From Candidatus Desulfofervidaceae bacterium (lineage in GTDB: Bacteria > Desulfobacterota > Desulfofervidia > Desulfofervidales > Desulfofervidaceae): a stretch of DNA of 64,000 bases. The stretch is taken from the NCBI GenBank assembly GCA_027038965.1, contig JALWFG010000018.1, positions 124,001 to 188,000 on the forward strand, given 5' to 3'. Position numbers and translations under genes: made by a program. Within the stretch, counting starts at the first letter, position 1; every line of letters starts with the position of its first letter. Positions 1 through 54,678 of this stretch are shown here, piece after piece. A model generated the notes under the pieces. The model did not search any database, was not told the origin of the DNA, and worked only from the letters and a program-made list of their open reading frames with translations.

Positions 1-1229
1 TTTCGGGCTGGGGTATGAATATTTGTTTTTTTAAACTCTCTGGCTGTATCTTTATGGCAAGAAAAACATAATTGAGAACATTTTTGCGTTAATTCCCATT
101 TGTAAGGGGAAGCGTGAGCATCGTGACACTTAAGACATTCCTCCTTTTGGGCTGGAGGATGCTTATAAAAACCTTCAAGCATCTTTCTTTGATGACAGGT
201 AAAACAAGCACCTTTCCCTTGAGAAAGGAGATTCTTAAATGGCGCCGTATGAGGATTATGGCAAACTACACACTTGCCGTTAGCCACAGGGGTATGAAGA
301 TGTTTCTGAGTGAGTTTCTTTTTCAATTGGACATGGCAACTAAGACAAAGTTTTTTCTCTGGCATTTTGGTAATGCCAACGTAATTGCTGGCGTGGGGAG
401 AATGACATTTTAAACAATCATTTTGCTTAAACCCCAGATGGACACAGTTTTGATTGAAAGGGGCCTTATTGCGGTCATGACAAGAATAACACAACTTATT
501 TATCGAAGCCTTCAATTTTAAAGGTTTCTTGGCGTTAGGTCCTGAATGGCACTTGTTACATTCTTTTTTGCACATGGGGACATGAGAATATTTCTTAAAT
601 AGTCCCTTGTCTGCACTGCTGTGCGGGGTATGACAGTTCAAACAATCCTTACCTTTAATAGGATAATTTGCGTGGGCATCTATAAACTTTTTGTCTTGAG
701 AATGGCAACTATAACATAGGTCTTCAGGAGTCTGCTTCAGCAATTTGGGATAGGCGCTCACATGGGGATTATGGCAAGTTTCACAGTTTTCAATAGGTTT
801 ATGGACTATTTTTTGCTCGAATCTGGCCTTTTCATGGCAAGAAAGGCAGGTATCCTTAGGTCCTTTAACTAAATAAAACTTGTTGTTTCCTCCATGGGGA
901 CTATGACACTTTAGACAATTTCCCTTGGAAAACGGTGGGTGTTTAACATTTCCTTTGGCGTTCTTAACATCCTTATGACAAGAAAAACAAAGTTGGGGCA
1001 AATTCTCTTTTAAATACACCCCCCCAATCAATCCATGAGGACGATGACACTTTTCGCAATTTTTCTCGGCTACCGGCGGGTGTACATATTTGGCTCCTGC
1101 CAATTTGGTATATTCCTTTTGGTGGCATTCAATGCAGCTTTTTTTTACACTAAGTTCGGGCGAAGGGGTAGGATGACAAGCCGTAAAACATATTCCCAAA
1201 AGCGCAATCAAAAAAATTACCTTTTTCAC
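1..1229 (-). CDS. Large multihaem c-type cytochrome lipoprotein (3' end outside window)
   Basis: Translating the minus strand from a GTG at 1229 gives about 409 residues, open at the window edge. It contains 16 CxxCH haem-binding motifs, spaced mostly 20-30 residues apart. They alternate between types such as CLKCHSPH and CFSCH, the pattern of the paired-CXXCH cytochrome family. The N-terminus is a hydrophobic signal sequence ending in FTAC, a plausible lipobox, so I infer an outer-membrane-anchored or surface decahaem-plus cytochrome. An AGGAG lies six bases before the GTG. The gene begins two bases after the stop of the parvulin-type foldase gene, so the two are co-transcribed. Its likely role is to move electrons across or beyond the outer membrane. 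The total haem number is unknown because the gene is truncated here. Confidence 0.9.
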   Translation of the reverse strand, partial: MKKVIFLIALLGICFTACHPTPSPELSVKKSCIECHQKEYTKLAGAKYVHPPVAEKNCEKCHRPHGLIGGVYLKENLPQLCFSCHKDVKNAKGNVKHPPFSKGNCLKCHSPHGGNNKFYLVKGPKDTCLSCHEKARFEQKIVHKPIENCETCHNPHVSAYPKLLKQTPEDLCYSCHSQDKKFIDAHANYPIKGKDCLNCHTPHSSADKGLFKKYSHVPMCKKECNKCHSGPNAKKPLKLKASINKLCYSCHDRNKAPFNQNCVHLGFKQNDCLKCHSPHASNYVGITKMPEKKLCLSCHVQLKKKLTQKHLHTPVANGKCVVCHNPHTAPFKNLLSQGKGACFTCHQRKMLEGFYKHPPAQKEECLKCHDAHASPYKWELTQKCSQLCFSCHKDTAREFKKTNIHTPAR

Positions 1230-1231
1230 TT

Positions 1232-2875
1232 TCAACTCCTAATTTGAAAATCTTTTTCCATTTTTTTAAACTCTTTTTCATTGATTTTTATCTTAGAAAA
1301 TTGGCGCAACTCCTTCAAATATTTGTCAAGAATTTCCCTAAATTTCTTATACCAAAGTTTCTTTTTAATGTCTAGCATAACTTTTTTGTACGGTAAAACC
1401 TCGCCTTCTTTTTTATCTTCTAAACGTAAGATAATAAACTTAAAGTTGTCTTTTAAAACAGGAGTAATCTCCCCAACTTTGAGTTGAGCCAAGCTTGCCC
1501 TTATCTTTGAAGGTAAACGGTTCGCTGAAACCCAACCAAGCAAACCACCATGTTTAGCAGTATCACTAACGGATTTTTTTCTGGCCAAAAGAGAAAAATC
1601 AGCCCCTGCTAACAGCTCTTCTCTAATTTCTTGGGCCTCTTTTTTAGTAGGAACTTTAATAATGCTTAGTTTATAACGGTCAGGCCCCCTAAAATCCTTT
1701 TTATGTCTCAAATAATATTGTTTCATCTCTTTTTCGCTCAGTTTGACTTGGGGAACAATAATTTTTTCTCTAAACGTAAGGGCCAAATAATAACGTTGGT
1801 ATCTTCTCAATGCCTTCTGCAATTGTTTATCTTTTTTAAAATAATTCTTTTTCAAAGCATATTGAGCAACCAAGATTTCATCTATAAGCTTGTTTAGAAC
1901 TTCTTTCTTTATCTTATTTTCGTCCAATTTTAGATGCCATCGTTCAGCCATTGCCTTTTGGCCCCAATAGTAATCTTTAAACACAGCCATGAAATCTTTT
2001 GCTGAAATCGCTTCGCCGTTAACCTTGGCCAAAATCCCTTCAACATTCTGGCCCGGTTCTAGTTTGCTTAATAGAGTGTTATTTATTTCTATTCTGGCCT
2101 TCTCTCTTAGAAACTTGACCAAACGCTTTTCTTCTTCTCCTAGCTTTTCATCAATATATTTGTTTCTAAGCCACCTTTTATGTTTTTTAAAAATTTCGGG
2201 GTTTGGGAAAATTTTCTTATCCACTCTAATGATATGATAACCAGCCTCTGTTTTTACGATTCCGCTTGTTTGCCCTGGTTTTAAAGCAAAGGCTACCTTT
2301 TCCCACTCTTTCACCATTCTACCTCGGGTAAGAATCCCCATTTTTCCACCCCGCGAGGCAAAAGGGTCTTCTGAAAGCTTTTTAGCCACTTTTTCAAAGG
2401 GCATACCTGACTTTATAAGCCTTAATGCCTCCTCAATCTTTTTTCTACTTTTTGAGAAAATTTGTCTAACCTCTATTTTGGTAAATTTATCATTGAAGTA
2501 TTTTTTTAAAATCTCATCATTAATTTTTAGTTGTTTTACCTTCTCATGCCAAAGCTCATTGAGGGCAAGATCCCTTTTGATCCCTTTCATTTGCTTTAAA
2601 TAAAAAGGGTCTTTGTCTAAACCTAATCGCCTTGCTTCTTGGGCCATTAAATACTCGTCAATAAATTCTTGAAGTTTATGTTTCAAAACCGAACCTGAAA
2701 GTCTCCCTGCCTTTTTACTTGCAGGATTCATCTGAGAATAAAAATGAAATTCTTTTAAATACTGTTTAAAATCGTCAACCCCAATTTCTTCACCATTTAT
2801 CTTTACCAAATAGGCAAAGCATGAATTTACTAAAACAAAAACCATTAATATTACCCAAAATAACGTTTTCTTCAT
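1232..2875 (-). CDS. Periplasmic peptidyl-prolyl isomerase with two parvulin domains (SurA/PpiC-like)
   Basis: The 547-residue protein starts with a signal peptide (about residues 1-21). It contains a duplicated unit: an N-terminal chaperone segment (YLVKINGEEI near residue 22, echoed by ILAKVNGEAI near 283), each followed by a rotamase domain at roughly 135-235 and 400-500. Both rotamase domains keep the GG(K/L)xG signature and the hydrophobic strand after AGYHIIRVD / NFKFIILRL. Such foldases help outer-membrane and secreted proteins fold, and they often accompany multihaem cytochrome genes. Here it sits directly upstream of a cytochrome with at least 16 haem motifs. The start has a GGAG seven bases upstream. 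Two full rotamase modules in one chain make it longer than typical PrsA and close to SurA organisation. Confidence 0.85.
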   Translation of the reverse strand: MKKTLFWVILMVFVLVNSCFAYLVKINGEEIGVDDFKQYLKEFHFYSQMNPASKKAGRLSGSVLKHKLQEFIDEYLMAQEARRLGLDKDPFYLKQMKGIKRDLALNELWHEKVKQLKINDEILKKYFNDKFTKIEVRQIFSKSRKKIEEALRLIKSGMPFEKVAKKLSEDPFASRGGKMGILTRGRMVKEWEKVAFALKPGQTSGIVKTEAGYHIIRVDKKIFPNPEIFKKHKRWLRNKYIDEKLGEEEKRLVKFLREKARIEINNTLLSKLEPGQNVEGILAKVNGEAISAKDFMAVFKDYYWGQKAMAERWHLKLDENKIKKEVLNKLIDEILVAQYALKKNYFKKDKQLQKALRRYQRYYLALTFREKIIVPQVKLSEKEMKQYYLRHKKDFRGPDRYKLSIIKVPTKKEAQEIREELLAGADFSLLARKKSVSDTAKHGGLLGWVSANRLPSKIRASLAQLKVGEITPVLKDNFKFIILRLEDKKEGEVLPYKKVMLDIKKKLWYKKFREILDKYLKELRQFSKIKINEKEFKKMEKDFQIRS

Positions 2876-4214: not shown

Positions 4215-5333
4215 TTAATACCGATCTCCATGACAACTAATACACAACTCCCTTCCCCTAGACTTGCGAAGATAATACCGGTATTTACTTCCATGGGCAT
4301 TATGACAAGAAGTACAGATCACAATATTTCCCTCAGCTAAGGGTAAACCAGAAGGGACCTTCATATTCTTCCCCAAGGGCACTCCCACAGGGTGAGAGAT
4401 GCCTAATTTTTCTGAGGGATGGCAGTGGTAACAAGAATCAAGCCCAGATTCCTTTGCCCCTTTTAAAACAATATTTGCATGTCCTTCTTGCCCTTTTGCC
4501 TCTTTTCTAACCTTTCTTAACTCAACCTTGCCCTGTGCCAATCTAGTGGTCAACCAAAAAAGAACTACCCTGCCATCAGAGGTTCTGCTAACCTTCAAAT
4601 CCCTTATTTTCAGTATCCCCTCAGGTTCTGAAGAATTCACCACCTCGGGTTCTGCCTGATACGGCACCACCTTAAACGATTTTGGTGGAGACACCGACTT
4701 ATTACCACAAACATCCAATGAAATTACTCTATAATAATAAGTGGCATCTTTGGCAAGATTAGAAATTTTCACCAAATGATTGACCACAAGGGTTTCGTCT
4801 AAAGGGGTAACAAATCCAAATTGTTTATCTTCTCCATATTCAACTTGGCTTGTAGAAAGCTCATCTGTAACCCATTTAATGGTAGCTTCATAGAACACAC
4901 CTGGTTTTATTTCCTTTACTTCAACTTTTGAGATTTTCGGAGGAGTAGTATCCTGAAGCAAAGGAAGCCGATCAAACTTTATCATTACTTTAACTTTATC
5001 CACTTTTCCATCTTTATCCCTAACTGTAACAACAGCCTCATAAAGGGATTCTTTATCTTTAAGATTAAATGCCGTCATGTGTTCGCGGGTAAGGGGGGTT
5101 ACCTTGGTAATTACGGTCCCTGCATTGGTCCCAAGGCGGTCTTTGTAAAGGTGACATTCTGCACACTTGCCTTCCGCAAATGGAGAATGGACATAAGGCT
5201 GATGAAGCCCTTTTGCTATGATGTTTTCATGACATTTGTTGCAATTTCCATTTGCCCAAGTTAAATTCAAAGAACAAAAAAGAACAATATTTATTACCAA
5301 GAACCACTTAAAAATCGTAGTTCCATTCTTCAT
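4215..5333 (-). CDS. Pentahaem c-type cytochrome with a central fibronectin type III domain
   Basis: The start was set at the ATG at 5333, which opens a clear signal peptide ending near LTWANG. An in-frame start 42 bases upstream would place 14 charged residues before it. Two haem motifs (CNKCH near residue 31 and CAECH near 54) come first. A fibronectin III-like domain follows (about 130-230, with PPKISKVEV, SQVEYG and YYYRVISLD). Three more haem motifs lie at the C-terminus (CYHCH, CTSCHNAHG, CISCH). The haems are thus split into two groups by a beta-sandwich that may bind protein or polysaccharide. It overlaps the upstream gene by 26 bases. I infer a periplasmic or surface electron carrier of the conduit. 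Confidence 0.88.
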   Translation of the reverse strand: MKNGTTIFKWFLVINIVLFCSLNLTWANGNCNKCHENIIAKGLHQPYVHSPFAEGKCAECHLYKDRLGTNAGTVITKVTPLTREHMTAFNLKDKESLYEAVVTVRDKDGKVDKVKVMIKFDRLPLLQDTTPPKISKVEVKEIKPGVFYEATIKWVTDELSTSQVEYGEDKQFGFVTPLDETLVVNHLVKISNLAKDATYYYRVISLDVCGNKSVSPPKSFKVVPYQAEPEVVNSSEPEGILKIRDLKVSRTSDGRVVLFWLTTRLAQGKVELRKVRKEAKGQEGHANIVLKGAKESGLDSCYHCHPSEKLGISHPVGVPLGKNMKVPSGLPLAEGNIVICTSCHNAHGSKYRYYLRKSRGRELCISCHGDRY

Positions 5334-6672
5334 GACGTTTTTTGACCTCCTCTTTTGGGGACTTAATTTTAACAACTCCTTTCATAAATAAAGGAATTTT
5401 CAACTTACTTAAGTTACCGGCTACATCTCTTACTTCACTGGCAATAAAACATTCTTTTGCTGATTGGGGCAATTTTAGCATAAGCTTATCGGGCATTTTT
5501 CCACTTCCAACAACAAGTTTCAGAAGACGGCCTTTTTTATCCACAATACTTAAGCTCCAATCATTTATCTCATTCTCCTCTAAACATTTGATTTTAAGCA
5601 CTCCTTTATTGCCTTGAGAGTTATCGGATATAAAACTAAATTCCAATTGAGGAGGAATTTTATCTACAATAATCTTAATGGGATTCGTAACCGCCACATT
5701 CCCTGCTTCATCCTCCGCCATACACCTAAAGAAATAGGTACCATCATTAACATTGCCATGTCCATCGTCTTCTCCATGCCAAGCCCATGCCGTAGGCAAA
5801 TCTCCTTCTCCTTCATAACTTCGAATTAATGTGCCTTTTTCATCATAAACCAAAAAGGCCCATTTTTTTATTTTATCTGGTTCCAGTAAAAAAGGAAAGA
5901 AAATAACACTGTCTTTTATCCCATCCATGTTAGGAGAAAAAATGGGATTTTCAACAGAAATTTTTAACTTAGGAGGAGTGTTGTCTACTGTCAAGAGAAC
6001 ACCAGTATTTATAAAATGGATGAGGCCTTTGTAATCCCAAATTTTTATTTTAGCAAAATAAAAGCCTTCCCGTTGAGGAGCAGAAATTTCACCCCGCCAG
6101 AGCAAGGAACTTTTATGTAAAAAGGCCTCTTTGTTGCCTATAAGTACGGCTACCCTTTTACACATCTCCTCAGCAGCAATTAAACGAACGGCAATTCTTA
6201 CTGTTGATTTACCTTTCACAATTTTTGGTGTCAAAGAAAAGTCTTCTAACAAATAGCTTGTTCCAACCTCTGTTCTTACGTTTGGCATTCGCTCCTGTGC
6301 CTTAAAGCCAACTGGAAACGTCTTAAGAATTTTTCTTAAGGCAATATCCATCAGTCTTTGCTCATCTTTAACTTCACCCAAACCAAACCAGGAACGAAAA
6401 TCATCTCCTCTCAAGGTTATATAATTCGTCCATAATATAGAACCGTTTCGGGTATTTATCACCCTTACACCAATTCCTATTTCAGGAACCTTTGGCTGAT
6501 AACTGTCAATCCAGCTTAAAATAACGGCCCTAGCCTTGTATCTGCGCCCCAATTCCTGAGCAAGAGTAGAAGACAAACAATAAAACTCCCGAATTCGCTT
6601 AGCATAAAGGAACTTCTTAATATCCTCTGGCAATAATGCTTCAAATCCCCTTTTCTTAAAAAAGAGGCCCAA
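5308..6672 (-). CDS. Downstream part of a split SPOR / CsgG-like / Ig-domain protein (-1 frame)
   Basis: This 454-residue reading frame begins inside a CsgG/GNA1162-like domain. Its first residues (FFKKRGFEALLPED onward to INTRNGSILW) complete the domain whose first strand, RVIVFPVSNLSQ, lies in the overlapping upstream frame 6516-7343. The two frames join exactly if the ribosome slips back one base, or one T is added, at 6657-6663. After about residue 130 it has beta-rich domains. One of these (about 245-330) has the SPNMDGIKD ... WHGEDD ... DGTYFFRCMAEDEAGN pattern of FlgD-like Ig domains. It ends overlapping the pentahaem cytochrome. It is either one protein made by frameshifting, a gene broken by one base, or a sequencing error; it is unlikely to be a free-standing protein starting at 6672. 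Confidence 0.65.
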   Translation of the reverse strand: MGLFFKKRGFEALLPEDIKKFLYAKRIREFYCLSSTLAQELGRRYKARAVILSWIDSYQPKVPEIGIGVRVINTRNGSILWTNYITLRGDDFRSWFGLGEVKDEQRLMDIALRKILKTFPVGFKAQERMPNVRTEVGTSYLLEDFSLTPKIVKGKSTVRIAVRLIAAEEMCKRVAVLIGNKEAFLHKSSLLWRGEISAPQREGFYFAKIKIWDYKGLIHFINTGVLLTVDNTPPKLKISVENPIFSPNMDGIKDSVIFFPFLLEPDKIKKWAFLVYDEKGTLIRSYEGEGDLPTAWAWHGEDDGHGNVNDGTYFFRCMAEDEAGNVAVTNPIKIIVDKIPPQLEFSFISDNSQGNKGVLKIKCLEENEINDWSLSIVDKKGRLLKLVVGSGKMPDKLMLKLPQSAKECFIASEVRDVAGNLSKLKIPLFMKGVVKIKSPKEEVKKRHEEWNYDF

Positions 6673-7343
6673 TATTTTATAATTCTATCTTCTGGAATAG
6701 TTTCTGCCTGACTAAGATTACTCACAGGAAAAACAATTACTCTAGGTTTAGGGATAACCCCTAAGGCACCTTGTGGAATTCGAGGAAGGACTGGAGGCAT
6801 AACTTGAGAAGGGACTCTCGTAATCCTTGGTTTGACTATTTTTCCCTTTTCTTTTATAGGCCTCAAAGGGGGCTTGGAGATTTTGGGAATGGGTTTTGTT
6901 TTTTTAGGTCCCTTAGGAGAAACCTTGGGCAATCTTTTTCTTTTTTTAAACCTTTCCTTAAGCATCTTTTTCTTTAAATGAGGTTTCAACGCAAGAGAAG
7001 GCATTTTGAGTTTTGGCCAGACTATCCTTTGTGGAATATAATAACAAGTGCGAACAAACGCATCTTTAAACCGAGCTTGGATTTCTCTAAAAATAGGCAA
7101 CAATTTATCTTTATTTGTCTCTAATCCTACTCTAACGGTATAAAATTTTCCAATTTTTTCTACCCTAGCATGAGGAAAATCCTTTATTCGCTTAAAGTCT
7201 TTTAAGGCCAAGGTTTTATTTTTAAAGGAAGATAATTGAACACAATAATAAGTCGTGTTAGGAGATGATTGTGCAAAGATAGCTTTCAAAAAAACAAAGA
7301 CAATACCTAAAACTATTAAGGTTTCAAATAAGCGTTTTCCCAT
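6516..7343 (-). CDS. SPOR-domain protein, upstream part of a split gene
   Basis: The start is the ATG at 7343, which overlaps the previous stop as TGATG. A signal peptide ends near FAQSS. A SPOR-like domain follows (about residues 32-95, YYCVQLSSFKNKTLALKDF ... GKFYTVRVG), of the type that binds denuded peptidoglycan. Then comes a long linker rich in Lys and Pro (about 110-190), and then the first strand of a CsgG-like domain (RVIVFPVSNLSQ). After RIIKYWASF the frame leaves the domain and ends in an unrelated, Cys- and Leu-rich tail of about 47 residues. The domain continues in the -1 frame (5308-6672). A fused product would tie an envelope-assembly module to the cell wall. Confidence 0.65.
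   Translation of the reverse strand: MGKRLFETLIVLGIVFVFLKAIFAQSSPNTTYYCVQLSSFKNKTLALKDFKRIKDFPHARVEKIGKFYTVRVGLETNKDKLLPIFREIQARFKDAFVRTCYYIPQRIVWPKLKMPSLALKPHLKKKMLKERFKKRKRLPKVSPKGPKKTKPIPKISKPPLRPIKEKGKIVKPRITRVPSQVMPPVLPRIPQGALGVIPKPRVIVFPVSNLSQAETIPEDRIIKYWASFLRKGDLKHYCQRILRSSFMLSEFGSFIVCLLLLLRNWGADTRLGPLF
6657..6663 (-). promoter_or_regulatory. U UUU UUA slippery heptamer at the frame junction
   Basis: In the upstream frame the codons read TCT TTT TTA AGA. The last T of TCT with TTT TTA forms T TTT TTA, an exact X XXY YYZ slippery sequence for -1 frameshifting. A -1 slip gives TTT TTT AAG and continues in the frame of 5308-6672, producing the continuous stretch WASFFKKRGFEALL. I see no strong Shine-Dalgarno-like stimulator just upstream and have not folded the downstream RNA. 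A homopolymer miscall (six versus seven T) would look the same. Confidence 0.4.
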
Positions 7344-7909
7344 CAACCTAAGGTTTTTAACATCTTTTTAATAAGAATATCTGTAACATCACTTAATGTC
7401 TTTTCTCCTATTCCAAATAAGCGGTTTAAGGCTCCCCCTCCTTTTTCTGTTCCTGTGGCTTGCCAAATAACAATCCCTGATTGGGCATCAATCAATTTTA
7501 AGGAGAGGGTAACTAAGGGCAAAGAAATACCCCCACTTTGAATTAAAGCAAATTCATCTACTGAACCCGTAATTATCCCTTGAACCCCCAAACGACTAGC
7601 AATCTTTTTTAGGCTTTTTATATCTAGATTGTTTGTATTAATTCTCATCTCTGCTAGGATATAATCTGTCTGACCGTTATCTACAACATCAAAAAGCCCT
7701 TGGGCAAGAAGTTCTGTCTCAAGGATATCACGCACCTTCTCATGCGCTGAGGTATCTCGGGAAAAGTTTTTAAGAGGAAGAATTGCCACCCGTTTAATGT
7801 AACTTATATCGGCCTTGGGATTGGCATATCGGGTAACATTCACTCCCCCACCACATCCTAGGACAAAGACCAATAATGCCGTTAAAAGAATGAATCCTTT
7901 TTTTCTCAT
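7343..7909 (-). CDS. CsgG/GNA1162-like outer-membrane lipoprotein
   Basis: The 188-residue protein has a textbook lipoprotein signal, with LLVFVLGC placing the lipidated Cys at residue 19. The mature part carries the alpha/beta fold of the CsgG / LpoB / GNA1162 group: strand KRVAILPLKNFS, helix EKVRDILETELLAQG, GVQGIITGSV, then LSLKLIDAQSGIVIWQATG. CsgG forms curli secretion pores and related lipoproteins activate envelope enzymes; which role applies here cannot be told from sequence. It follows the beta-barrel gene by 11 bases and overlaps the SPOR gene start, so the three are probably translated together. It is the clearest of the four proteins of this fold in the neighbourhood. Confidence 0.7.
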   Translation of the reverse strand: MRKKGFILLTALLVFVLGCGGGVNVTRYANPKADISYIKRVAILPLKNFSRDTSAHEKVRDILETELLAQGLFDVVDNGQTDYILAEMRINTNNLDIKSLKKIASRLGVQGIITGSVDEFALIQSGGISLPLVTLSLKLIDAQSGIVIWQATGTEKGGGALNRLFGIGEKTLSDVTDILIKKMLKTLG

Positions 7910-7920
7910 AGCCTTCTCCT

Positions 7921-9996
7921 TTAAAATCCTGTTGAAAATCTCATATAAAAATCATGTGAAGTTTGTCTTTTTTCCTTTTTTGTTCGGGAATAGCTGTAAC
8001 CTGTTCTAAAACTACTCTTTCTCCCCAAGTTGAATATCAGGTCTAAGCTATGCATCATCTGACTTGTTCCGTCAGAAATGTTTGTAAATTGACTAGTAGC
8101 ATTCATTTGTATTTTTTGGGTAAGAAAGCATCCTAAACTATATTGATGGGAAAAATAACTTCCCCCACCTCTATTGTTATATTGGATATAAAGACGTCCG
8201 TAAACCCTTGAAGAAGGAGTATAAACCATAGTAGTGCTTATGCTCGAAGAACTAGTTGATTCGGTCACATCATCTTTGGTACTTTGCCATTGCCAATCAT
8301 AGTCAATATCCCAATTGAGGTGTTTTGTAAGAATTGTTCTTATATACAAACTAGAAAAAACAAAATTTGTTTTCGTGCCTGTCTGGGGAGCTTCATTAAA
8401 ATTGGCATTTAAATCCCAATTTACATTGATTCCTTCCCATACCTCGGCTACTGTGCTCAAAACAACACCGTTGTTATTTGCTGTCTTTACTCCATTTTCC
8501 TTTGTTGTAGAATGAGTCAGAGTAAGGGTAGTTGCAAGGGTTTCAAGGGGAGTATATCGCAGATTTAATGAATAGAGTTGGGAGGTGGTTTCCTGATTAG
8601 ACCTATTTTTGCTTGTTTGATAGCTCAAAGTAAGTAAAAGGTCAGAAAACAATTCCCCTGAAAGGCTTGCCCCTTGATTAAGGTTATAATTCATCCCTGT
8701 AGGAGAGGAGTTCACAAAACTGTCTGTTTTATAATAGGTTACATGATAGTTAGTCGTCCAATTCTCTAAGATTTTGTAAGAAACTCCCGCATTGGCTGTA
8801 TAATTTTTTGTATGAGTCTGTTGCTTGCCTTTTATGGTTTCTTGTCCATAGGCTTCTATCTCAGTCACTCCAAAAGAGGGAGGGTTGGTTATCGGAGCCC
8901 TATAGACCACTTTGAAATAACGGGCTTGAGTGGAATTAAAACTGATTTCAAACCGATGTTGGACGGTATCATAAGAAAAGGAAGCCGCAGATGTAATCTT
9001 AGTCCAATTTCTAGGTTCTGTATCTTCATTTGTATAATATACCTCCCAAGTAATGGCTTCATTGTTGTAAAAAAAACTCCTATCGGTGTATATATAAATA
9101 GCATCCACAGCTTGGGATGTTTCTAATTCAACTCCAACATTTAAATAGTCGCTTATAGAAGTAACCACTACATCCTTATTTTTATCGATTAACTGGTCAT
9201 TAAGAATGAGTTCCCCTGTCGTAGTCTGGTTTGGGGTAGTATCTGTACCATAAAAGCCATGAACGGCCCTCCTCTGAATTTCCAAAGTATTTCCTTGAGG
9301 GGCTCTAGTAGTAACGGTATAGTAATTGTATCCACAATCAGTATATAAAGACAATTTATTGTCTAGAAGAGTTTTATGAAAGTTCACCCTTGCAATATGA
9401 TTGTAACTGTCTTGAGTAGAATCTTGGACATAATCTTGAGAAAACATTCCCATAAAGTTATAAAGTAGTTGTCCTATTCCATAATCGTAAATAGCACCTG
9501 CGATTACGGTATCTGAAGATTCATCAGTATCTTTGGTTTGCTGATGGTCATATTGGCGGGAATGAGTATATTGAAAATTCATTTGAGGCCACTTCTCCAT
9601 TCGGCTTATAAGGTTTAGATTGACAAAATAGTTTGTAACTCTTGGAGATTTATTGGTATCAGAGTCCATTAAATCAAAACTGAGGTTGCCAGTTACATAT
9701 TCATTAATCAAATTGAATCCTAAAGAAGGATAAATAATTCGGCTTGTTCTATCCTTTGACCTTGTTTTAGTATAATGAAGGGTAGAATTAACTCCTATGG
9801 CAGGGGTCAATTTAGATGTATAATTTAGATAATAGTTTTGAGTAAATTGGTATGAACTGCTTGAACCCCCATCAGCAGATGTTTGACTGGTAGTATAAGT
9901 TAAATCTAAATTTCCAGAAAGCTCTTGAGTCCAAGCCAAAGGAAAAAACACAAAGATCCGCGTCAGAACTAGTATAACTACCCATATCCACCGCAT
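7921..9996 (-). CDS. Outer-membrane beta-barrel with inserted discoidin-like domain (conduit porin candidate)
   Basis: The 691-residue protein has a signal peptide ending near LAWTQ. Long alternating aromatic/polar strands follow, with Ser/Thr-rich turns, and the protein ends in a terminal Phe (YMRFSTGF), all typical of a large outer-membrane barrel. Between about residues 245 and 385 the pattern changes to a discoidin (F5/8 type C)-like sandwich: VVVTSISDYLNVGVELE, DAIYIYTDRS, ITWEVYYT, then ARYFKVVYRAP and VTEIEAYG. Such domains bind carbohydrate or protein, so this one is probably a large surface loop. Its place between multihaem cytochromes fits the porin of a porin-cytochrome conduit, but I see no direct similarity to MtrB. 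The pore role is inference. Confidence 0.75.
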   Translation of the reverse strand: MRWIWVVILVLTRIFVFFPLAWTQELSGNLDLTYTTSQTSADGGSSSSYQFTQNYYLNYTSKLTPAIGVNSTLHYTKTRSKDRTSRIIYPSLGFNLINEYVTGNLSFDLMDSDTNKSPRVTNYFVNLNLISRMEKWPQMNFQYTHSRQYDHQQTKDTDESSDTVIAGAIYDYGIGQLLYNFMGMFSQDYVQDSTQDSYNHIARVNFHKTLLDNKLSLYTDCGYNYYTVTTRAPQGNTLEIQRRAVHGFYGTDTTPNQTTTGELILNDQLIDKNKDVVVTSISDYLNVGVELETSQAVDAIYIYTDRSFFYNNEAITWEVYYTNEDTEPRNWTKITSAASFSYDTVQHRFEISFNSTQARYFKVVYRAPITNPPSFGVTEIEAYGQETIKGKQQTHTKNYTANAGVSYKILENWTTNYHVTYYKTDSFVNSSPTGMNYNLNQGASLSGELFSDLLLTLSYQTSKNRSNQETTSQLYSLNLRYTPLETLATTLTLTHSTTKENGVKTANNNGVVLSTVAEVWEGINVNWDLNANFNEAPQTGTKTNFVFSSLYIRTILTKHLNWDIDYDWQWQSTKDDVTESTSSSSISTTMVYTPSSRVYGRLYIQYNNRGGGSYFSHQYSLGCFLTQKIQMNATSQFTNISDGTSQMMHSLDLIFNLGRKSSFRTGYSYSRTKKEKRQTSHDFYMRFSTGF

Positions 9997-10012: not shown

Positions 10013-11425
10013 CTAATCTTCTGTCAAAATCAAGTCGTAAGGTCTACTGCCAACCTCTATTTTTTGTATTTCCCTCTCCTTGATTAAATCAAACACATCA
10101 ACACTATTATCCTGAGCATTTACTACATACAATAACTTTCTATCCCTGTCTAGGGCCATTCCCATTGGTTTTCGTCCGGTAATCAGCCTTTTAGGAGAAA
10201 TGTCTACATTGGGTAAAACAAAATAAACGCAATCCATGAGCTCCCCAGCCACATAAAACCAACCTTTTAATCCCTTTATGATTTTACTAGGTCTACCAGG
10301 GACAAAAATATTATGGCGTACCGAAAGGGTATTGACATCAATTACACTAACGGTATTTGATTGCCCACTGGCTACTAAGAGATAGTTGTTAGAATACGCC
10401 AAGAAACAAGGCTCTGCCCCTACTCCTACAGTATTAACCACTTCATTGGTGCTAGTATCGATTACAGAAACACTGTTGCTATAACTATTTGCTACATACA
10501 CATATCTTCTCTCTGGGTCTACTGCCAGCCCTACAGGCCCTTGACCGACCTCTATCGTCTTTATTACCCTTCGAGTCTGAACATCCACCACCAACACAGC
10601 ATTTGAACCTTTAGCCGAAACATAAAGATACGAAGTATCCGGAAGTAACACAATCTCGGTAGGCTCTACAGCCATAGGTAGGCGAATCTCGTCTACGACT
10701 CGATTGGTGGCCGTTTCTACCACCGAAATACTCTTAGACAGGGAATTAACTACATAAAGATATGCCCCGTCTTCGGACAAGGCCATTCCCTTGGGAGATT
10801 CCCCTACCGTAACCGTATCAATTACCTGATTAGTCCCCCTATCTATAACAGAAAGATAATTTTCACCCGCATTGCTAACATATAATAGTAATTTCTTCAG
10901 CCCTACCTTCCCCTGAGTAACATTGATCACAGGGACAAATAACGTTTGATGTTGAACAGAGCCAGATGGCTGCCAGCGGAGAAACAAACTAGAGGTTTTA
11001 TCCCGAGGAATAAAAAGGTCAACAGGAATCTTGATAAGTCTCTGATTTATTTTCAAAAGAAGCTTTTTGTTATCCTTTATAAGTTTGGCTTGGCTAATTT
11101 CTAGGTTTATACTATTGTAGCTCCCAACATCCACAACTCCCTGAGCAAGCAATATTTGCTGGTTAAATAAAAAAGAAGAACTAAGGGTATGACTTCTTAA
11201 AGCAAGTGGGACTTCCTTGCCTTCCTTATCTTCAAGAAAGATCCTGCTAAGAGAAAAAACTGTTTCATAGGTTGGAGGGCCCTCGGCCTGGAGATATACC
11301 AAGATTTGCCCCTTGGGTGTAATCGTGTCTTTAGGAACTAAACTACAGGCTAAGAAAAAGGGGAACAAAACAAGACACAGCCAACCTTTTTTAGGTGACA
11401 AACACCTCAGCTTGTTTAAAAACAT
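10013..11425 (-). CDS. YVTN beta-propeller lipoprotein with N-terminal DUF4382-like domain
   Basis: The 470-residue protein has a signal with lipobox FFLAC, so it is probably lipidated. Residues about 35-160 resemble the DUF4382 sandwich (ILVYLQAEGPP, FSLSRIFLE, LLAQGVVDVGSYNSINLEI). From about 178 to the end there are repeated blades of the YVTN type, such as LLYVSNAGENYLSVIDRG, YLYVVNSLSKSISVVET and YVYVANSYSNSVSVIDTS, each about 42 residues. Propellers of this kind occur on surface proteins and make protein-protein contacts. It overlaps the end of the octahaem cytochrome by ten bases and precedes the beta-barrel. I infer a surface scaffold or docking protein for the cytochromes; there is no haem motif in it. 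Confidence 0.8.
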   Translation of the reverse strand: MFLNKLRCLSPKKGWLCLVLFPFFLACSLVPKDTITPKGQILVYLQAEGPPTYETVFSLSRIFLEDKEGKEVPLALRSHTLSSSFLFNQQILLAQGVVDVGSYNSINLEISQAKLIKDNKKLLLKINQRLIKIPVDLFIPRDKTSSLFLRWQPSGSVQHQTLFVPVINVTQGKVGLKKLLLYVSNAGENYLSVIDRGTNQVIDTVTVGESPKGMALSEDGAYLYVVNSLSKSISVVETATNRVVDEIRLPMAVEPTEIVLLPDTSYLYVSAKGSNAVLVVDVQTRRVIKTIEVGQGPVGLAVDPERRYVYVANSYSNSVSVIDTSTNEVVNTVGVGAEPCFLAYSNNYLLVASGQSNTVSVIDVNTLSVRHNIFVPGRPSKIIKGLKGWFYVAGELMDCVYFVLPNVDISPKRLITGRKPMGMALDRDRKLLYVVNAQDNSVDVFDLIKEREIQKIEVGSRPYDLILTED

Positions 11426-12735
11426 CTTCTGCCTGTATACAGAGAAGGATAGTAAGGAAGATTACTGCTATCAAGCAAGCAACTATCATTCCCACCATGG
11501 AAATGACATCTATTGCAAGGTATAGGCGGCTTACCGCCACCACCGCCACCACCATGACACCACCCGCAGCGTGAAGGTGGACCTGGATATGGGGCATCAT
11601 CTGGATCGAGGTGGTGAATATACTCAAACTTTCCTGCATATCCCCCATAATAGGAATCATCCTTGTGACAGCGACCACAGAGATAGGACCAATAAACAGT
11701 ATCAAAGGCCGTAATGTTTCCAGCCAAATCTCCTCCATTTACCTCTCGCCTGATTAACATCACATTAGGAGAGCCATGTGGTTCATGGCAATCTAAACAG
11801 GAGAGAACAAAGCCAATGCTAATTCCTAAGGGCGAAGTAGCAAAGGGGTCTTTAATATTTAAACTCGTAGTAGCTGAATTCTGACCATGTTTGTCCCCAC
11901 CAGATTCTCCCCCTGCTGTCACCCAATCAATTTTATAAAGATTGCGTCCTAAAGTAGTGCTATAAATGGTATTTGTGCTATTATGGCAATCGGTGCAAAA
12001 AGTGTCATAATCAGGCATATTTGAGCCATTGTAAGTGGCGGTATTTCCAGGTTCGTAAGTTGAAGTAGAATTGTAATAATAAGGGGCCTGGTAATTGGTG
12101 GTATAATCGCTCATCCTTTCACCTGAATCATCACCCCAAAGCTGACTGTGGGCCGTAGGGCGGGAGATAGCTGTATAACTTGGGTCAGTTGGATTGGCCT
12201 TATTCCTTCTGGCCAAATGTGGGTTGTGGCAAGCCACGCAAGGATTAGAACTAGCTGTAAAAAAAGAAGAGAAGTTGTTTTTGGCAAAGTTGTAGACATC
12301 ATACAGGTTATGAAAAGAAGTCTGGTTAAAGGCATCTAAAATTCCTGTAACACTGGCCGTTGCTCCGCCAAAGGTGGTGCTATAATCATAATTTGTAATT
12401 CCTCCGCTTTGAAGGGAATTCAGACTTGTGTGACAATAGAAACAAAAATCATCGCTCTGCAAATAGGAACCTGTAGTATTTGTAGTATTGAAATTATCTG
12501 CAAAAAGACAAAACCCTGAGGGAGCACCTCCACTAGGTGTAGGTTCAGCCCCATTTATACTGGCATGCTGTTCATGACAATGAGCACAATTTCCTTGGAC
12601 ATAACTGCTTAACTCAGTTACATTTCTCTTTACTCCATTAGCCGCATCCCCATGGGCAGAAAGGCTATAATTCCCTGCTCCTGCGGGAAGAGAGAAAGAA
12701 AGAATTAGGCCTAAAACAATTGCCAAAACTTTCAT
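11416..12735 (-). CDS. Octahaem c-type cytochrome, exported
   Basis: The start at 12735 opens a clean signal peptide (MKVLAIVLGLILSFSLPAGA); the longer open frame upstream overlaps the previous gene and has no export signal at its start. The 439-residue protein has eight CxxCH motifs: CAHCH, CFYCH, CVACH, CTDCH, CLDCH, CGRCH, CGWCH and CNRCH. The last two are joined by a run of seven glycines. The N-terminal SAHGDAANGVKR followed by a CAHCHEQH haem site is a recurring pattern in predicted secreted cytochromes of metal and sulfate reducers. It follows the OmcS-like gene by seven bases. I infer an extracellular or cell-surface electron carrier working with it. Confidence 0.87.
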   Translation of the reverse strand: MKVLAIVLGLILSFSLPAGAGNYSLSAHGDAANGVKRNVTELSSYVQGNCAHCHEQHASINGAEPTPSGGAPSGFCLFADNFNTTNTTGSYLQSDDFCFYCHTSLNSLQSGGITNYDYSTTFGGATASVTGILDAFNQTSFHNLYDVYNFAKNNFSSFFTASSNPCVACHNPHLARRNKANPTDPSYTAISRPTAHSQLWGDDSGERMSDYTTNYQAPYYYNSTSTYEPGNTATYNGSNMPDYDTFCTDCHNSTNTIYSTTLGRNLYKIDWVTAGGESGGDKHGQNSATTSLNIKDPFATSPLGISIGFVLSCLDCHEPHGSPNVMLIRREVNGGDLAGNITAFDTVYWSYLCGRCHKDDSYYGGYAGKFEYIHHLDPDDAPYPGPPSRCGWCHGGGGGGGKPPIPCNRCHFHGGNDSCLLDSSNLPYYPSLYTGRRCF

Positions 12736-12742: not shown

Positions 12743-13846
12743 TTAATTTTTCTCTGTATGGCATACACTACATTTGTCTCCATATACACTTCCCTTGTAA
12801 TCCCAACGCATCGCCTTAAAAAATTCGCTGCCATGGGCCCGATGACAAGAAATACACATGACAATATTGCCAGAACTATTCACGGTAGATTGAACGCCTA
12901 AACTTAAGTCATCTTCACCCAAAGGCACTACAGGGTCATAAGAGGTACCGTAAACGGCTGCATATTCACCGCTGTTGGGCAAAGCAAAATCTGTGGGATG
13001 CCGTAACCAAACAGGATGACTTCCTGCTTGACTGTGATAATAGCCATGACACTCGGCACAGAGATAACTAATGGTACTCATGTCCGTATAACCGCTGTTC
13101 CCATTTACCCCTTTGTATTCGTTATGGTCAGTAGCACTAGCCGTATACTCCCAATCATTGTCTTCAATTCCTAAAATACCAGCTAAAAAACGGTAACTTT
13201 TCCCTACCGTGCTTCCATCTATCACAGAATCATCTTCATGATGGGCGCCATAAATGGCCTCAAAATTATCCGTCACTCCATCTCCATTTAAATCATTGAC
13301 ATGTTTACCATGACAGCCATAGGTGCCAGCACAAGTCAATTGGCTCGTCCAACTCGCCGCCCCTCCTGCTATTTGACCAAATGAGTTGCTTGCAGTAGCA
13401 GTAGGGTCCCATCCGGGTGGAGTCAAGCCTATAGTGGCATCCGGAGCCGCTATGCCCACTACGTTATGCCCATAGGGGTCACCCCCTGCCTGAGTTACCC
13501 AATAAAAATTTCCTCCAGCCAAGCTTTTTCCTGCCCCAGTACCTAGGGGAGCTGTAGTCATATTCACTACTGGAATAGTACTTTGCTCGCCACTTGGACC
13601 GATTGTTTTTATAGGGGCACTTCCACTATGGCAGCCTATACAATCTCCTACAGTAAGGGCCCTAAAAGGGCCAGAAGGAGATCGGGTAGGCCATTCAGAA
13701 GGCCAAGGGGTTTGGCTATAGTGCATAGTATGACAATTTGAACAAACGCCAGAGACCTGTGACCACAACTTAAATGGAAAAAAACAAAGAAAACTTACTA
13801 TCAAAAAAAACCACACTTTAATAGCAAAAGCAGCCTTATAACACAT
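12743..13846 (-). CDS. OmcS-like hexahaem cytochrome, candidate extracellular cytochrome filament subunit
   Basis: The 367-residue protein has a signal peptide and haem sites at residues 35 (CSNCHTMH), 69 (CIGCH), 172 (see below), 263 (CAECH), 331 (CISCHRAHG) and 359 (CSVCH). Order and spacing follow Geobacter OmcS, which polymerises into conductive filaments: a CxxCHTMH start, a GxFYWV...GHN segment near 112-128, an H...LRHP segment after haem 4, CHRAH at haem 5 and a haem motif at the extreme C-terminus. The third site is CAGTYGCHG, with five residues between the cysteines instead of two. It is the first gene of the dense cytochrome operon. Filament formation is inferred from this layout only. 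Confidence 0.85.
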   Translation of the reverse strand: MCYKAAFAIKVWFFLIVSFLCFFPFKLWSQVSGVCSNCHTMHYSQTPWPSEWPTRSPSGPFRALTVGDCIGCHSGSAPIKTIGPSGEQSTIPVVNMTTAPLGTGAGKSLAGGNFYWVTQAGGDPYGHNVVGIAAPDATIGLTPPGWDPTATASNSFGQIAGGAASWTSQLTCAGTYGCHGKHVNDLNGDGVTDNFEAIYGAHHEDDSVIDGSTVGKSYRFLAGILGIEDNDWEYTASATDHNEYKGVNGNSGYTDMSTISYLCAECHGYYHSQAGSHPVWLRHPTDFALPNSGEYAAVYGTSYDPVVPLGEDDLSLGVQSTVNSSGNIVMCISCHRAHGSEFFKAMRWDYKGSVYGDKCSVCHTEKN

Positions 13847-14003: not shown

Positions 14004-14324
14004 TTAACGCAATAAACTACACCTTTTATCTCTCAACATAAGTTTTGCCTTGCGGGTGAGGGTATAATAGGTATGATTCATGTGTTTAACCTTACGCCAA
14101 CCTTTGGGTTTCAAAAAACGGCCTTCTACCCTCTTAAGAAAGCCTTTTTGCCTTAATTCCTGAAGCAATTTCATTATATCATCAAGTTCCAAATGCAACT
14201 CTCTGGCAATAAATTTGGCACAATCAGCACCTACATGAAGGACATGAAATAAAACTTCTTTCTCTACTGAGGAAAGTCCTTCTATAGAACCTGAGCAAGC
14301 GGATAAGTTTTTACTTTTTCTCAT
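14004..14324 (-). CDS. Small winged-helix-like protein (DUF2250-like)
   Basis: The start was placed at the ATG at 14324, which gives 106 residues and a 14-base overlap with the upstream gene; a longer frame to 14372 would overlap by 62. The segment LSSVEKEVLFHVLHVGADCAKFIARELHLELDDIMKLL reads as a helix-turn-helix, followed by a wing (RVEGRFLKPK) and a conserved-looking HTYYTLTRKAKLMLR end. The arrangement resembles DUF2250, a small winged-helix family known mainly from archaea. It may be a DNA-binding regulator. It is the last gene before the cytochrome operon on the same strand, so it could regulate it, but nothing in the sequence proves that. Confidence 0.6.
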   Translation of the reverse strand: MRKSKNLSACSGSIEGLSSVEKEVLFHVLHVGADCAKFIARELHLELDDIMKLLQELRQKGFLKRVEGRFLKPKGWRKVKHMNHTYYTLTRKAKLMLRDKRCSLLR

Positions 14325-14640
14325 TCGCCTGAAAGTGGGCAATTCTTTTTTTATAAAAAAGGATTTGCTCATTTAAGTCCTTTAACCCCCAGGCATAAAC
14401 ATAACTGAAACGAGCATCATGACCTGTTTGAGAGAGAAAGCGGAACTTCAAGGTGCTAAAAAAACAATAAAAGTAAAGGTCCTGACCCGCAGGCACCCCC
14501 TTTAGAATTTCCTTTTGAGCCAAGTCTAAAAAATATTTTCTTTCTTTGTCATTAAATTCTTTTAAAAACTGCTCCCGTTGCCAGATAGTAATCTCCCTCT
14601 CTGTTGGAGGCATCTCCCTTTCAAGGTTGCTTGAAGACAT
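14311..14640 (-). CDS. Small protein of unknown function
   Basis: The 109-residue protein has no signal peptide or membrane segment and is rich in charged and aromatic residues (EFNDKERKYFLDLAQ, DLYFYCFFSTLKFRFLSQ). I do not recognise the family. It starts 39 bases after the FG-GAP protein gene ends and overlaps the DUF2250-like gene, so the two small genes are translationally coupled. Codon use is like that of its neighbours. It has three Cys-free terminal thirds and only one Cys overall, so it is not a haem or iron-sulfur protein of an obvious type. Confidence 0.6.
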   Translation of the reverse strand: MSSSNLEREMPPTEREITIWQREQFLKEFNDKERKYFLDLAQKEILKGVPAGQDLYFYCFFSTLKFRFLSQTGHDARFSYVYAWGLKDLNEQILFYKKRIAHFQANEKK

Positions 14641-51088: not shown

Positions 51089-52486
51089 ATGGAAAAGAAG
51101 CAGTCTCTATTAAGGGCATTACCTTCTGTAGATGAATTGCTGAAGGAAAAGGCAATTCTGAATTTGTTGTCTCAAAAACCACGCCAGTTAATCGTAAATA
51201 CTATTCGGACTATATTAGAAAAAGAACGGGAGAAGATCTTAAAAGGAAAGAGTCAAGGGGTTCATAAAGACAATGTTGTCAATCAAGTTGTCAGTGAAGT
51301 TGAACGCAAAGGGAAAAATCAACTCTGCCGAGTAATTAATGCTACAGGGGTTGTGGTTCACACCAATTTGGGGCGTTCTTTGTTGGCTAAAGAGGCCATA
51401 GCCCACATTGTAGAAGTGGCTCAATACTATAATAATCTGGAATATGATTTACAGCAGGGCCGGCGGGGAATGCGATATAGCCATATAGAGGGGCTTTTGT
51501 GCGAATTAACCGGGGCTGAAGCAGCGATGGTGGTTAATAATAATGCTGGAGCTGTTTTTTTGGTGCTCAATACCCTGGCTTATGGCAAAAAGGTCATTAT
51601 TTCAAGGGGGCAATTGATAGAGATCGGGGGATCCTTTCGGATTCCTGATGTCATGACTAGAAGTGGGGCCATTTTGAAAGAGGTTGGCACCACTAATCGG
51701 ACTCATCTTTACGATTACGAAGACGCCATTGATGAAGAAACAGCTATGTTGATGAAGGCCCACACGAGCAATTATAAAATTATTGGATTTACGAAAGAAG
51801 TGCCTCTCAAAGAACTGGTTAATTTGGGTCATCAGTATAAATTGATTGTGTATGAGGATTTGGGAAGTGGAAATTTTATTAATTTCCCTAAATATGGCTT
51901 AGAAAAAGAGCCCACAGTGCCAGAAGTAGTTGCGGCAGGGGTGGATATTGTAAGCTTTAGTGGGGATAAGCTACTTGGAGGCCCTCAGGCAGGAATTATC
52001 CTTGGAAAAGAGGAATATATAGAAAAAATTAAGCGGAACCCCTTAAATCGTGCCTTAAGGATTGATAAATTTACCCTGGCTGCCTTAGAAAGCACCCTCA
52101 AGTTATACCGAGATGAGAAAACGGCCTTAAGAGAAATCCCCACATTAAAATTTATTTTTACACCCCCAGAGGTCTTGCGTCGTCGGGCCAGGCGGTTATG
52201 TCGGCACTTAAAGAAATCTCTGGATAACAAGGAATTTGCCTTGAAGGTTGATGCAGATGTGTCCAAGGTCGGGGGTGGGGCCTTACCAGGTTTGACTTTA
52301 CCTACATATGTGATAAAAATAAAACCCAAGAGGATGTCTGTAGTAAGGTTGGAAAGGGAACTGAGGGCTACCGAACCTCCTTTAATTGGACGTATTGAAG
52401 ATGAGGCCTTATGTCTTGACGTTCGCACCATTCAGGACGAGGAAATAAAACTTGTTCCTGAAATCATTAAAAGGGCGTTAGGGTAA
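51089..52486 (+). CDS. selA: L-seryl-tRNA(Sec) selenium transferase
   Basis: SelA is a PLP enzyme that turns Ser-tRNA(Sec) into Sec-tRNA(Sec) using selenophosphate. The 465-residue protein has the family N-terminal domain (RALPSVDELL), VVVHTNLGRS, ELTGAEAAMVVNNNAGAV and the PLP Lys in FSGDKLLGGPQAG. With SelB at 54889 it shows that this organism makes selenoproteins, usually formate dehydrogenases or hydrogenases in such bacteria; none is in this window. AAGGAGG precedes the ATG. Confidence 0.97.
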   Translation: MEKKQSLLRALPSVDELLKEKAILNLLSQKPRQLIVNTIRTILEKEREKILKGKSQGVHKDNVVNQVVSEVERKGKNQLCRVINATGVVVHTNLGRSLLAKEAIAHIVEVAQYYNNLEYDLQQGRRGMRYSHIEGLLCELTGAEAAMVVNNNAGAVFLVLNTLAYGKKVIISRGQLIEIGGSFRIPDVMTRSGAILKEVGTTNRTHLYDYEDAIDEETAMLMKAHTSNYKIIGFTKEVPLKELVNLGHQYKLIVYEDLGSGNFINFPKYGLEKEPTVPEVVAAGVDIVSFSGDKLLGGPQAGIILGKEEYIEKIKRNPLNRALRIDKFTLAALESTLKLYRDEKTALREIPTLKFIFTPPEVLRRRARRLCRHLKKSLDNKEFALKVDADVSKVGGGALPGLTLPTYVIKIKPKRMSVVRLERELRATEPPLIGRIEDEALCLDVRTIQDEEIKLVPEIIKRALG

Positions 52487-52487
52487 A

Positions 52488-52877
52488 ATGGAGAAGAGCA
52501 TAAAAAGGCATATTCAGGCTATTTTAAAGGATTTACCTTCTGGCTTTCGTAGTGAGAGGACTATAGAAGAAACAATTAAATGTGCCCTTTTTGATTGGAT
52601 AAAAAGTCAAGGTTTGCTCCCTGTGCCCTCTTATCGTCCACCCCGCCGTCAAGAAGAACCCCTTGCTCTGGTGGCTTTGGATCAGGAAAGAAACATCCTT
52701 TATGCCTTTGCCGTTGCCCCTGTCATCACTTTAGGGGCCATGAAGACGTTTAAAATCGTAGAGGCAAAAGAAAAATATTTTATTACCTATTCTCAAATGG
52801 CTAAAAAGGTGGAAGAAAGTAGATTTTTCCTTACTCCAGACGTAATTCATTTGCATGTAGGTAGAGACATCAGCTAG
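52488..52877 (+). CDS. Unknown protein coupled to selA
   Basis: The 129-residue protein begins one base after the selA stop, so it is translationally coupled. There is no signal peptide or membrane helix. A helical N-terminus (IKRHIQAILKDLPSG) and then strand-rich parts (PLALVALDQERNILYAFAVAP, KTFKIVEAKEKYFITYSQMA) suggest a small alpha/beta enzyme or RNA-binding protein. I do not recognise the family. Its place next to selA hints at selenium metabolism, but no residue pattern supports that. Confidence 0.65.
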   Translation: MEKSIKRHIQAILKDLPSGFRSERTIEETIKCALFDWIKSQGLLPVPSYRPPRRQEEPLALVALDQERNILYAFAVAPVITLGAMKTFKIVEAKEKYFITYSQMAKKVEESRFFLTPDVIHLHVGRDIS

Positions 52878-53137
52878 GGGTAAATAAGGCAATGTCGCTG
52901 GGTTTAAGTTAATCATTGTTTTTTTGACCGCCGGACACAGCACTGGATAGACGTAACTGTTATAAGTCCTTAGTTGGCTTTTTTCTTCTTTCAGGCAGGT
53001 TTTCCTAACAAGCGATAAAACGGCTGACGAAACGATTCAAAAAGTCAAAGAATTTGTAACTGTCTGTCCTGCCCTCAAGAGGCAGGATACAAGGCTTTTA
53101 AGTTATGGTGCGGAATTTGTAGGGGGCGTAACATCAG
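52878..53137. other. Gene-free stretch between convergent genes, with a hairpin
   Basis: No gene or RNA gene is seen. CCTGCC...GGCAGG at about 53068-53088 forms a hairpin without a T-run. The plus-strand frame from about 52977 to 53153 is open and reads like protein near its end (SDKTADETIQKVKEFV), but it has no start codon with a ribosome site. It may be a decayed gene end; I cannot name it. Confidence 0.3.
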
Positions 53138-53893
53138 TTAATCATGTTTTTTGAAAAATAAGGCATCCAATTTTTGGCAAATTTCTTTTAAAAAGGCCGC
53201 GTCATCATCACAAAGCTCTCCTTTAGCCAGAAGGTTTGGTCTCAAAATAAGGGTCCTCAAAAGGGCTTGCTGTCTGCGCCAACGAGCAATGTTTTGATGA
53301 TGTCCTGAAAGAAGTATCTCTGGAACTTTGTATCCTTCATATACGGCTGGTCGGGTATAGTGAGGGTATTCTAGAGTGCCTTGGGAAAACGACTCTTCTT
53401 CTACAGATTCTTGTTTGCCTACTACCCCTGGGATGAGGCGGGCAATAGCATCTACAATGCAGATAGCCGCAGGTTCTCCTCCGGTTAAAATAAAGTCGCC
53501 CAAGGAAATATCATCATCTACAAATAGCCTTACCCGTTCATCAATGCCTTCATAATGACCACAAATAAATGCCAAATGTCCTTTTTGACTCAATTCAAAG
53601 GCTACTTGCTGGTTAAACACCCTACCCTGCGGAGAAAGCATCGTAATCCAAGCCGAAGGGGCCTTTGTTTTCAAATATTTGATGGCCTTAATTATTGGTT
53701 CAGGTTTCATTACCATTCCGACGCCACCACCATAGGGTTCATCATCGGTTACTCGGTGTTTTCCTTCAGCAAAATCCCGAATATTAATAATTTCAATCTC
53801 TATCTTTTTCTGTTTAAGGGCTCGGCCAATGATACTTGTCTTAAAGGGGGATTCAAAAAATTCTGGAAAGAGGGTTAAAATGGTGAAAATCAT
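53138..53893 (-). CDS. trmD: tRNA (guanine-N1)-methyltransferase TrmD
   Basis: TrmD methylates G37 of tRNAs with the SAM-binding trefoil knot. I set the start at the ATG at 53893 (MIFTILTLFPEFF), two bases after the ABC ATPase gene ends; an upstream frame would overlap it. About 251 residues. The knot motifs FICGHYEGIDERV and LGDFILTGGEPAA and the ligand loop YGGGVGMVMKPEP are present. It is not in the usual rpsP-rimM-trmD-rplS cluster here but downstream of an MlaF-like ATPase. Confidence 0.95.
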   Translation of the reverse strand: MIFTILTLFPEFFESPFKTSIIGRALKQKKIEIEIINIRDFAEGKHRVTDDEPYGGGVGMVMKPEPIIKAIKYLKTKAPSAWITMLSPQGRVFNQQVAFELSQKGHLAFICGHYEGIDERVRLFVDDDISLGDFILTGGEPAAICIVDAIARLIPGVVGKQESVEEESFSQGTLEYPHYTRPAVYEGYKVPEILLSGHHQNIARWRRQQALLRTLILRPNLLAKGELCDDDAAFLKEICQKLDALFFKKHD

Positions 53894-53895
53894 AG

Positions 53896-54678
53896 TTAAC
53901 CTGAGATTCCCTGAGTCCAAAATTGGGAAAGCTTCCCATGAAATCTCTTGATTTGGGCGGTTAAAAAGTTTTGAATTTCTGGATTGTCAGATTGAAAAAC
54001 CTTTTGGGATTCATCACATATGGCGATTTGTCCCTGACTTAAAACCGCCACCTTATCCGCCACTGCAAAGATGGTAGGTACATCATGACTGATGATGATA
54101 CTGGTAATTTTCAGTCGCGATTCCATCTCTAGAATGAGCTCATAAATAGAAGCGCTGGTAACTGGATCCAATCCTGTGGTTGGCTCATCGTAAATAAGGA
54201 TTTCAGGCTCAAGCACAATGGCCCTTGCCAAACCTACTCTCTTCTTCATTCCCCCTGAAAGCTCGCTAGGCATTTTGTTTTCAATATTAGGTAGTCCTAC
54301 CAGCTTTAGTTTTTCTTTAACAATTTGGTTAATTTCCCTTTCACTCAATTTGGTGTGTTCCCTTAGAGGAAAGGCAATGTTTTCTCCTACTGTCATAAAA
54401 TCAAAGAGGGCCGCTTCCTGAAAGAGCATTCCAAAACGTCTCCTGACCTTTTTCAGTTCCTTAGCACCTGCCCGAGTAATGTCTGTCCCATCTACAAAAA
54501 TATGCCCTTTGTTAGGTTTTAAAAGCCCTACAATGTGCTTTACAAGAACCGTCTTTCCACTTCCGCTCCGTCCAATAATAGCCGTAATTTCACCTTTGTG
54601 GATTTCCAAATTAACACCCTTTAACACCTTTTGTTTGCCAAAGCTCTTGTGCAAATCAACGATTTTTATCATATCCAT
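53896..54678 (-). CDS. mlaF: ABC transporter ATPase, MlaF-like
   Basis: The 260-residue ATPase has Walker A IGRSGSGKTVLVKHIVGL (about 36-53), signature SELSGGMKKRVGLARAI, Walker B ILIYDEPTTGLDPVTS and the switch His in ISHDVPTIF. The KTVLVKHIVGL segment and LSGGMKKRVGLARA match the phospholipid-transport MlaF/Ttg2A type rather than import ATPases. No permease (MlaE) or MlaD gene lies next to it, so it is an orphan in this window. It runs directly into trmD. Confidence 0.85.
   Translation of the reverse strand: MDMIKIVDLHKSFGKQKVLKGVNLEIHKGEITAIIGRSGSGKTVLVKHIVGLLKPNKGHIFVDGTDITRAGAKELKKVRRRFGMLFQEAALFDFMTVGENIAFPLREHTKLSEREINQIVKEKLKLVGLPNIENKMPSELSGGMKKRVGLARAIVLEPEILIYDEPTTGLDPVTSASIYELILEMESRLKITSIIISHDVPTIFAVADKVAVLSQGQIAICDESQKVFQSDNPEIQNFLTAQIKRFHGKLSQFWTQGISG

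Follow-up and report, generated by a model that had tools for sequence, protein, structure and literature searches.

The OmcS-like gene and its surroundings

The window, which is the whole 64,000-nt stretch of DNA analyzed here, contains at positions 12743–13846 an uninterrupted ORF on the minus strand for an OmcS-like cytochrome of 367 aa with a signal peptide; the plus-strand frame over the same positions is interrupted by stops. The first-pass annotation, made from the sequence alone and naming no strand, had placed a hexahaem OmcS-like cytochrome at exactly these coordinates. From the N- to the C-terminal end, the deduced product contains CSNCHTMH (residues 35–42), CIGCH (69–73), GNFYWV...GHN (112–128), CAGTYGCH (172–179), CAECH (263–267), LRHP (281–284), CISCHRAHG (331–339), and CSVCH (359–363), and all the motifs named in that annotation are therefore present, in the order given. 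The haem 1 motif CSNCHTMH, at 13721–13744 of the minus strand, includes His42, and CAGTYGCH, the haem 3 motif, lies at 13310–13333 of the same strand. The latter corresponds to what had been described simply as a haem site and has the noncanonical spacing CX5CH instead of CxxCH; hence, with five canonical CxxCH sites, the term hexahaem hinges on the binding of haem by CX5CH. The mature chain would have roughly 337 residues, assuming a signal peptide of ~30. Searches against Pfam and NCBIfam retrieved only generic haem domains, and scans for promoters, terminators and repeats around the gene yielded nothing useful above chance. Just upstream, positions 14004–14372 code for a small DUF2250/TrmB-like winged-helix protein, a possible regulator.

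An octahaem secreted cytochrome of ~439 aa (11416–12735, minus strand), a syntenic partner in relatives as well, directly follows the OmcS-like gene, as had been annotated. Its likely in-frame ATG, at 12735, is 7 bases past the OmcS-like stop at 12743. The start assigned mechanically to this ORF, at 12864, is farther upstream and makes the two genes overlap falsely. A profile of the octahaem protein had a weak, non-significant match in the PDB to 7tfs (E = 0.031), over its first haems; 7tfs is the entry for the OmcE filament (PMC11936953). Its AlphaFold model, from an input of 6 sequences, reached a pLDDT of 31. An OmcZ-like reading was also considered and dropped, because no similarity to OmcZ turned up for either the OmcS-like or the octahaem cytochrome.

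These two genes head a cluster of ~20 kb that lies on one strand. They are followed, also on the minus strand, by genes for a YVTN/YncE beta-propeller with a lipoprotein-like N-terminus (10013–11425), a 691-aa protein with no Pfam match that is a candidate outer-membrane beta-barrel and probable conduit porin (7921–9996), a CsgG/LpoB-like lipoprotein (7343–7909), a SPOR-domain protein (6516–7346), a protein with a CHU_C domain match (5308–6672) and a pentahaem cytochrome whose middle domain is fibronectin-like (4215–5375). After two small proteins come a double PpiC-type prolyl isomerase/SurA-like protein (1232–2878), which like the CHU_C protein is syntenic in relatives, and the N-terminal part, with 16 CxxCH motifs, of a 26-haem cytochrome that continues beyond the window (1–1238). 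The cluster then proceeds with a 16-haem cytochrome, an NHL propeller and two 12-haem cytochromes, after which there are a C554-type cytochrome and a PAS/HAMP histidine kinase (C18:116874–123999 for the part beyond the window). The kinase ORF holds one CYKCHGSEE motif and is perhaps a haem-sensing kinase. The 691-aa protein would be a barrel, and the 26- and 16-haem proteins would be the outer and inner cytochromes of the conduit. Many genomes have conserved this cluster, and much of its gene order is shared with genomes G002 and G003; the order also recurs, in more divergent form, in records from Thermodesulfatator and Thermosulfurimonas.

Relationship to OmcS

Searched on its own against the PDB, the OmcS-like sequence had no match even at E = 1, which bears out the annotated divergence of its linkers. 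Conversely, a profile built with 21 relatives retrieved OmcS (6ef8/6nef) with E = 4.4e-22, and the next entries, with other cytochromes among them, had E values of 0.43 or worse; a gap of this size argues that the match is specific and not a by-product of the haem motifs. We then examined an alignment of 85 rows, 49 of them from the subfamily with the CX5CH motif, taking as conserved those columns shared by at least 95% of these 49. OmcS played no part in choosing the resulting 62 columns and is identical in 42 of them, 23 of which are neither Cys nor His, over the OmcS positions 8–350 printed by the PDB search, a range that leaves out the last OmcS haem motif. Likewise, five of the six distal His positions of OmcS are retained, as His42, His127, His271, His283, and His338. 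Apart from His16, which corresponds to His42, the distal ligands of OmcS itself would be, from their conservation, His110, His147, His247, His257, and His335.

Profile and alignment thus uphold an OmcS-like layout and homology to OmcS along most of the chain, although the assignment to OmcS has to be narrowed. Against the six canonical CxxCH motifs and the twelve His at OmcS positions that characterize OmcS proper, the window protein has five CxxCH plus one CX5CH and keeps five of the six distal positions. Judged by its sequence, it belongs to the OmcS-like family in the broad sense, within a sister subfamily, and is not OmcS proper.

Histidine 42 and possible filament formation

OmcS is reported to polymerize by the binding of His-16 from each monomer to haem V of the next (PMC13319180), and one of its 12 His ligands, that on haem 505, is donated by the neighboring subunit (PMC6584659). 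In the alignment, His42 of the window protein falls on OmcS His16, and all 48 CX5CH rows that extend this far have it; in the 49th, the contig ends before it. The inter-subunit ligand on which the first-pass annotation made its filament proposal depend has, then, a conserved equivalent, a support that is of the sequence and not of the structure, and we infer that His42 is used between subunits in the window protein as well.

Our preferred reading, to which we give a probability of roughly 0.6, is that copies of the protein assemble into an OmcS-type cytochrome filament outside the cell, with a remodeled haem 3 in each subunit. The protein would be exported and would take up six covalent bis-His haems; His42 of one unit would occupy the vacant position on haem V of its neighbor, resulting in a polymer with a continuous chain of haems, and the filament would swap electrons with the cell through the adjacent conduit-like proteins. 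In a relative of Desulfofervidus that carries dsrA, electrons could either enter from a partner cell or leave toward a mineral, and the sequence leaves this direction undecided. Long-range current through the OmcS filaments of Geobacter is itself disputed (PMC11077965, PMC11021709).

The conserved His42 could also serve within its own subunit, or for docking, in a hexahaem cytochrome that sits on the conduit at the cell surface as a monomer or small oligomer and hands electrons to a mineral or a partner, with no filament. The gene does lie in a single operon-like group that also includes the candidate barrel and the 26- and 16-haem cytochromes, and polymerization is not something that a sequence can show; additionally, the haem-free AlphaFold monomer, from an input of 19 sequences, was uninformative (pLDDT 41, pTM 0.41). 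However, the conservation of His42 and of the CHTMH around it equals that of the haem motifs, and the residue they align with is precisely the one with a reported role between subunits, so we consider a protein of this type unlikely.

The CX5CH motif at the haem 3 site

The haem 3 region has the same length in OmcS (CSSCHDPHG) and in the CX5CH subfamily (CAGTYGCHG), and the first Cys and the last His align, whereas the second Cys sits three residues later in the subfamily. OmcS His144, the proximal ligand of haem 3, has given way to Tyr or a different residue, and the distal His147 aligns with His179, the putative new proximal His of the window protein. Both cysteines and the histidine of the motif (Cys172, Cys178, and His179) are kept in 49 of 49 rows, under 18 different spellings. 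Since rows entered the group by this very motif, the weight rests on their grouping in trees and on the absence of CX5CH elsewhere. In trees built without the haem 3 columns the CX5CH rows cluster, implying one change in the first tree and one or two in the second; the first gives weak support for a CX5CH clade (SH-aLRT 18), and for the second a single clade is acceptable under the AU test (p = 0.62). CX5CH was absent from the other multihaem ORFs examined, further copies of these proteins excepted. Additionally, the sister group, whose members have seven or eight haem motifs, shows at haem 3 a mixture of CX2CH (12 sequences), CX3CH (5) and CX4CH (4), indicating that the spacing is variable in that group but that two Cys and the His persist.

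The change at haem 3 is accompanied by three additional histidines. His202 and His203 (GAHH; 13238–13243, minus strand) form an invariant pair in the alignment and are new candidate haem ligands; like His241, they are missing from OmcS, almost missing from the canonical proteins and near-invariant in those with CX5CH, as they also are in the sister group with seven or eight motifs. This near-invariance in both groups and absence from OmcS suggest that at least one of the three probably substitutes for the lost distal ligand of haem 3. Nevertheless, the CX5CH proteins may stem from one event, and the association of the motif with the new histidines then counts as one observation and not as many. 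The subfamily has 14 near-invariant His versus the 12 needed by six bis-His haems, so that the assignment of ligands is incomplete, with two His unexplained.

These observations would be accommodated if the second Cys had shifted to a place beside the former distal His, turning it into the proximal ligand of haem 3, and the lost ligand were supplied from the region of His202-His203 and His241. CX5CH would then be a genuine, undescribed motif for covalent haem c, fixed in a large OmcS-like subfamily of Thermodesulfobacteriota, with the haem chain rewired and no haem lost; we hold this to be an even bet. In the open-licence literature searched, we did not find CX5CH as a haem motif in any described cytochrome, and the haem 3 variant appears to be the new element here.

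The same silence of the open literature, along with the replacement of OmcS His144 by Tyr or other residues, might suggest instead a pentahaem protein in which CX5CH carries no covalent haem and Cys172 and Cys178 form a disulfide or bind something else. We find this improbable in view of the invariance of Cys172, Cys178, and His179 in the 49 rows and of the graded CX2CH, CX3CH, and CX4CH series at the equivalent site of the sister group; besides, losing haem 3 would break the haem chain in its middle. That the 14 near-invariant His make seven bis-His pairs, with a seventh haem held solely by two of the extra invariant His as a counterpart of the seven-motif paralogs, which have an extra CxxCH just ahead of the equivalent HH pair, is highly improbable, because the CX5CH group has no Cys at that place and we know of no precedent for a noncovalent haem within such a chain.

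Paralogs, distribution, and published relatives

Seven-motif OmcS-like paralogs are often found in tandem with CX5CH genes. This is the case at C18:65581–67912, outside the window, where a second CX5CH copy (69% identity) and a seven-motif paralog lie in tandem. In G002 and G003, the slot in the cluster is occupied by a seven-motif paralog and the CX5CH gene is located elsewhere; in our tree, the CX5CH copy from the window is closest to the stand-alone CX5CH copy of its own genome. From this topology, the slot seems to have changed its occupant through duplication or conversion.

Within the phylum, 395 genomes were sampled and 45 had a match to the profile with E ≤ 1e-20, a count that includes paralogs and canonical OmcS-like genes. 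CX5CH genes also occur in a cultured relative, Thermodesulfatator autotrophicus. G002, from the same family, contains a relative of the window protein with 57% identity, and genome G001, of the same genus and rated as 100% complete, has neither an OmcS-like gene nor a homolog of the barrel; this indicates that the electron-transfer module is patchy, having been gained or lost within the genus. A dsrA gene was found above the cut-off, with a second match adjoining it, and the bacterium is probably a sulfate reducer; for cytochrome maturation it seems to use a system of the ResB/CcsA type. Genes for SelA and SelB are present at 51089–56799 of the window, suggesting the synthesis of selenoproteins.

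Murali et al. (2023) described OmcS-like genes that accompany the Oet conduit in sulfate-reducing syntrophs, Ca. Desulfofervidus among them; these authors proposed the formation of filaments and reported high expression in HotSeep-1 consortia (PMC10553843). A nanowire role had therefore been put forward in print for the Desulfofervidus family, and the general claim of the first-pass annotation is not new. The survey of these bacteria searched with CxxCH, and the main text of PMC10553843 does not mention CX5CH.

Comparison with known systems

The solved OmcS filament is from a single species, and its physiological role is contested. A widespread sister subfamily that has kept the linking His and rebuilt one haem site makes it possible to test independently which features an OmcS filament requires; the window protein is thus a promising target for structural study, without amounting to an entirely new system. 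If CX5CH does carry haem, the range of motifs accepted in cytochrome maturation would be broader, and genome searches with CxxCH would overlook such sites.

With OmcS from Geobacter sulfurreducens (6ef8, 6nef), the window protein shares the order of motifs, the five canonical haem motifs and the position of the His16 ligand. They differ in haem 3, where OmcS has CxxCHxxH and the window protein has CX5CH plus three extra near-invariant His, as well as in the length of the mature chain, of 407 residues in OmcS versus roughly 337. In Geobacter, further multihaem cytochromes and a YVTN propeller have been described for the omcS region (PMC3495685); the window gene, too, has genes of these kinds nearby, and the two settings may correspond. 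The seven-motif OmcS-like paralogs, such as that at C18:65581–66702 in the same genome, are homologous and share His42, His202, His203, and His241 with the window protein, but, unlike it, they have an extra CxxCH between haems 3 and 4 and a CX2-4CH haem 3. The Oet conduit comprises a porin, OetI, and the periplasmic and extracellular cytochromes OetA and OetB (PMC10553843); the window cluster is syntenic with that of G002, and it may be of the Oet type. Finally, the OmcS-like proteins of Ca. Desulfofervidus auxilii (HotSeep-1) are from the same family and are associated with what appears to be a conduit cluster of the same type, which includes extracellular cytochromes (PMC10553843).
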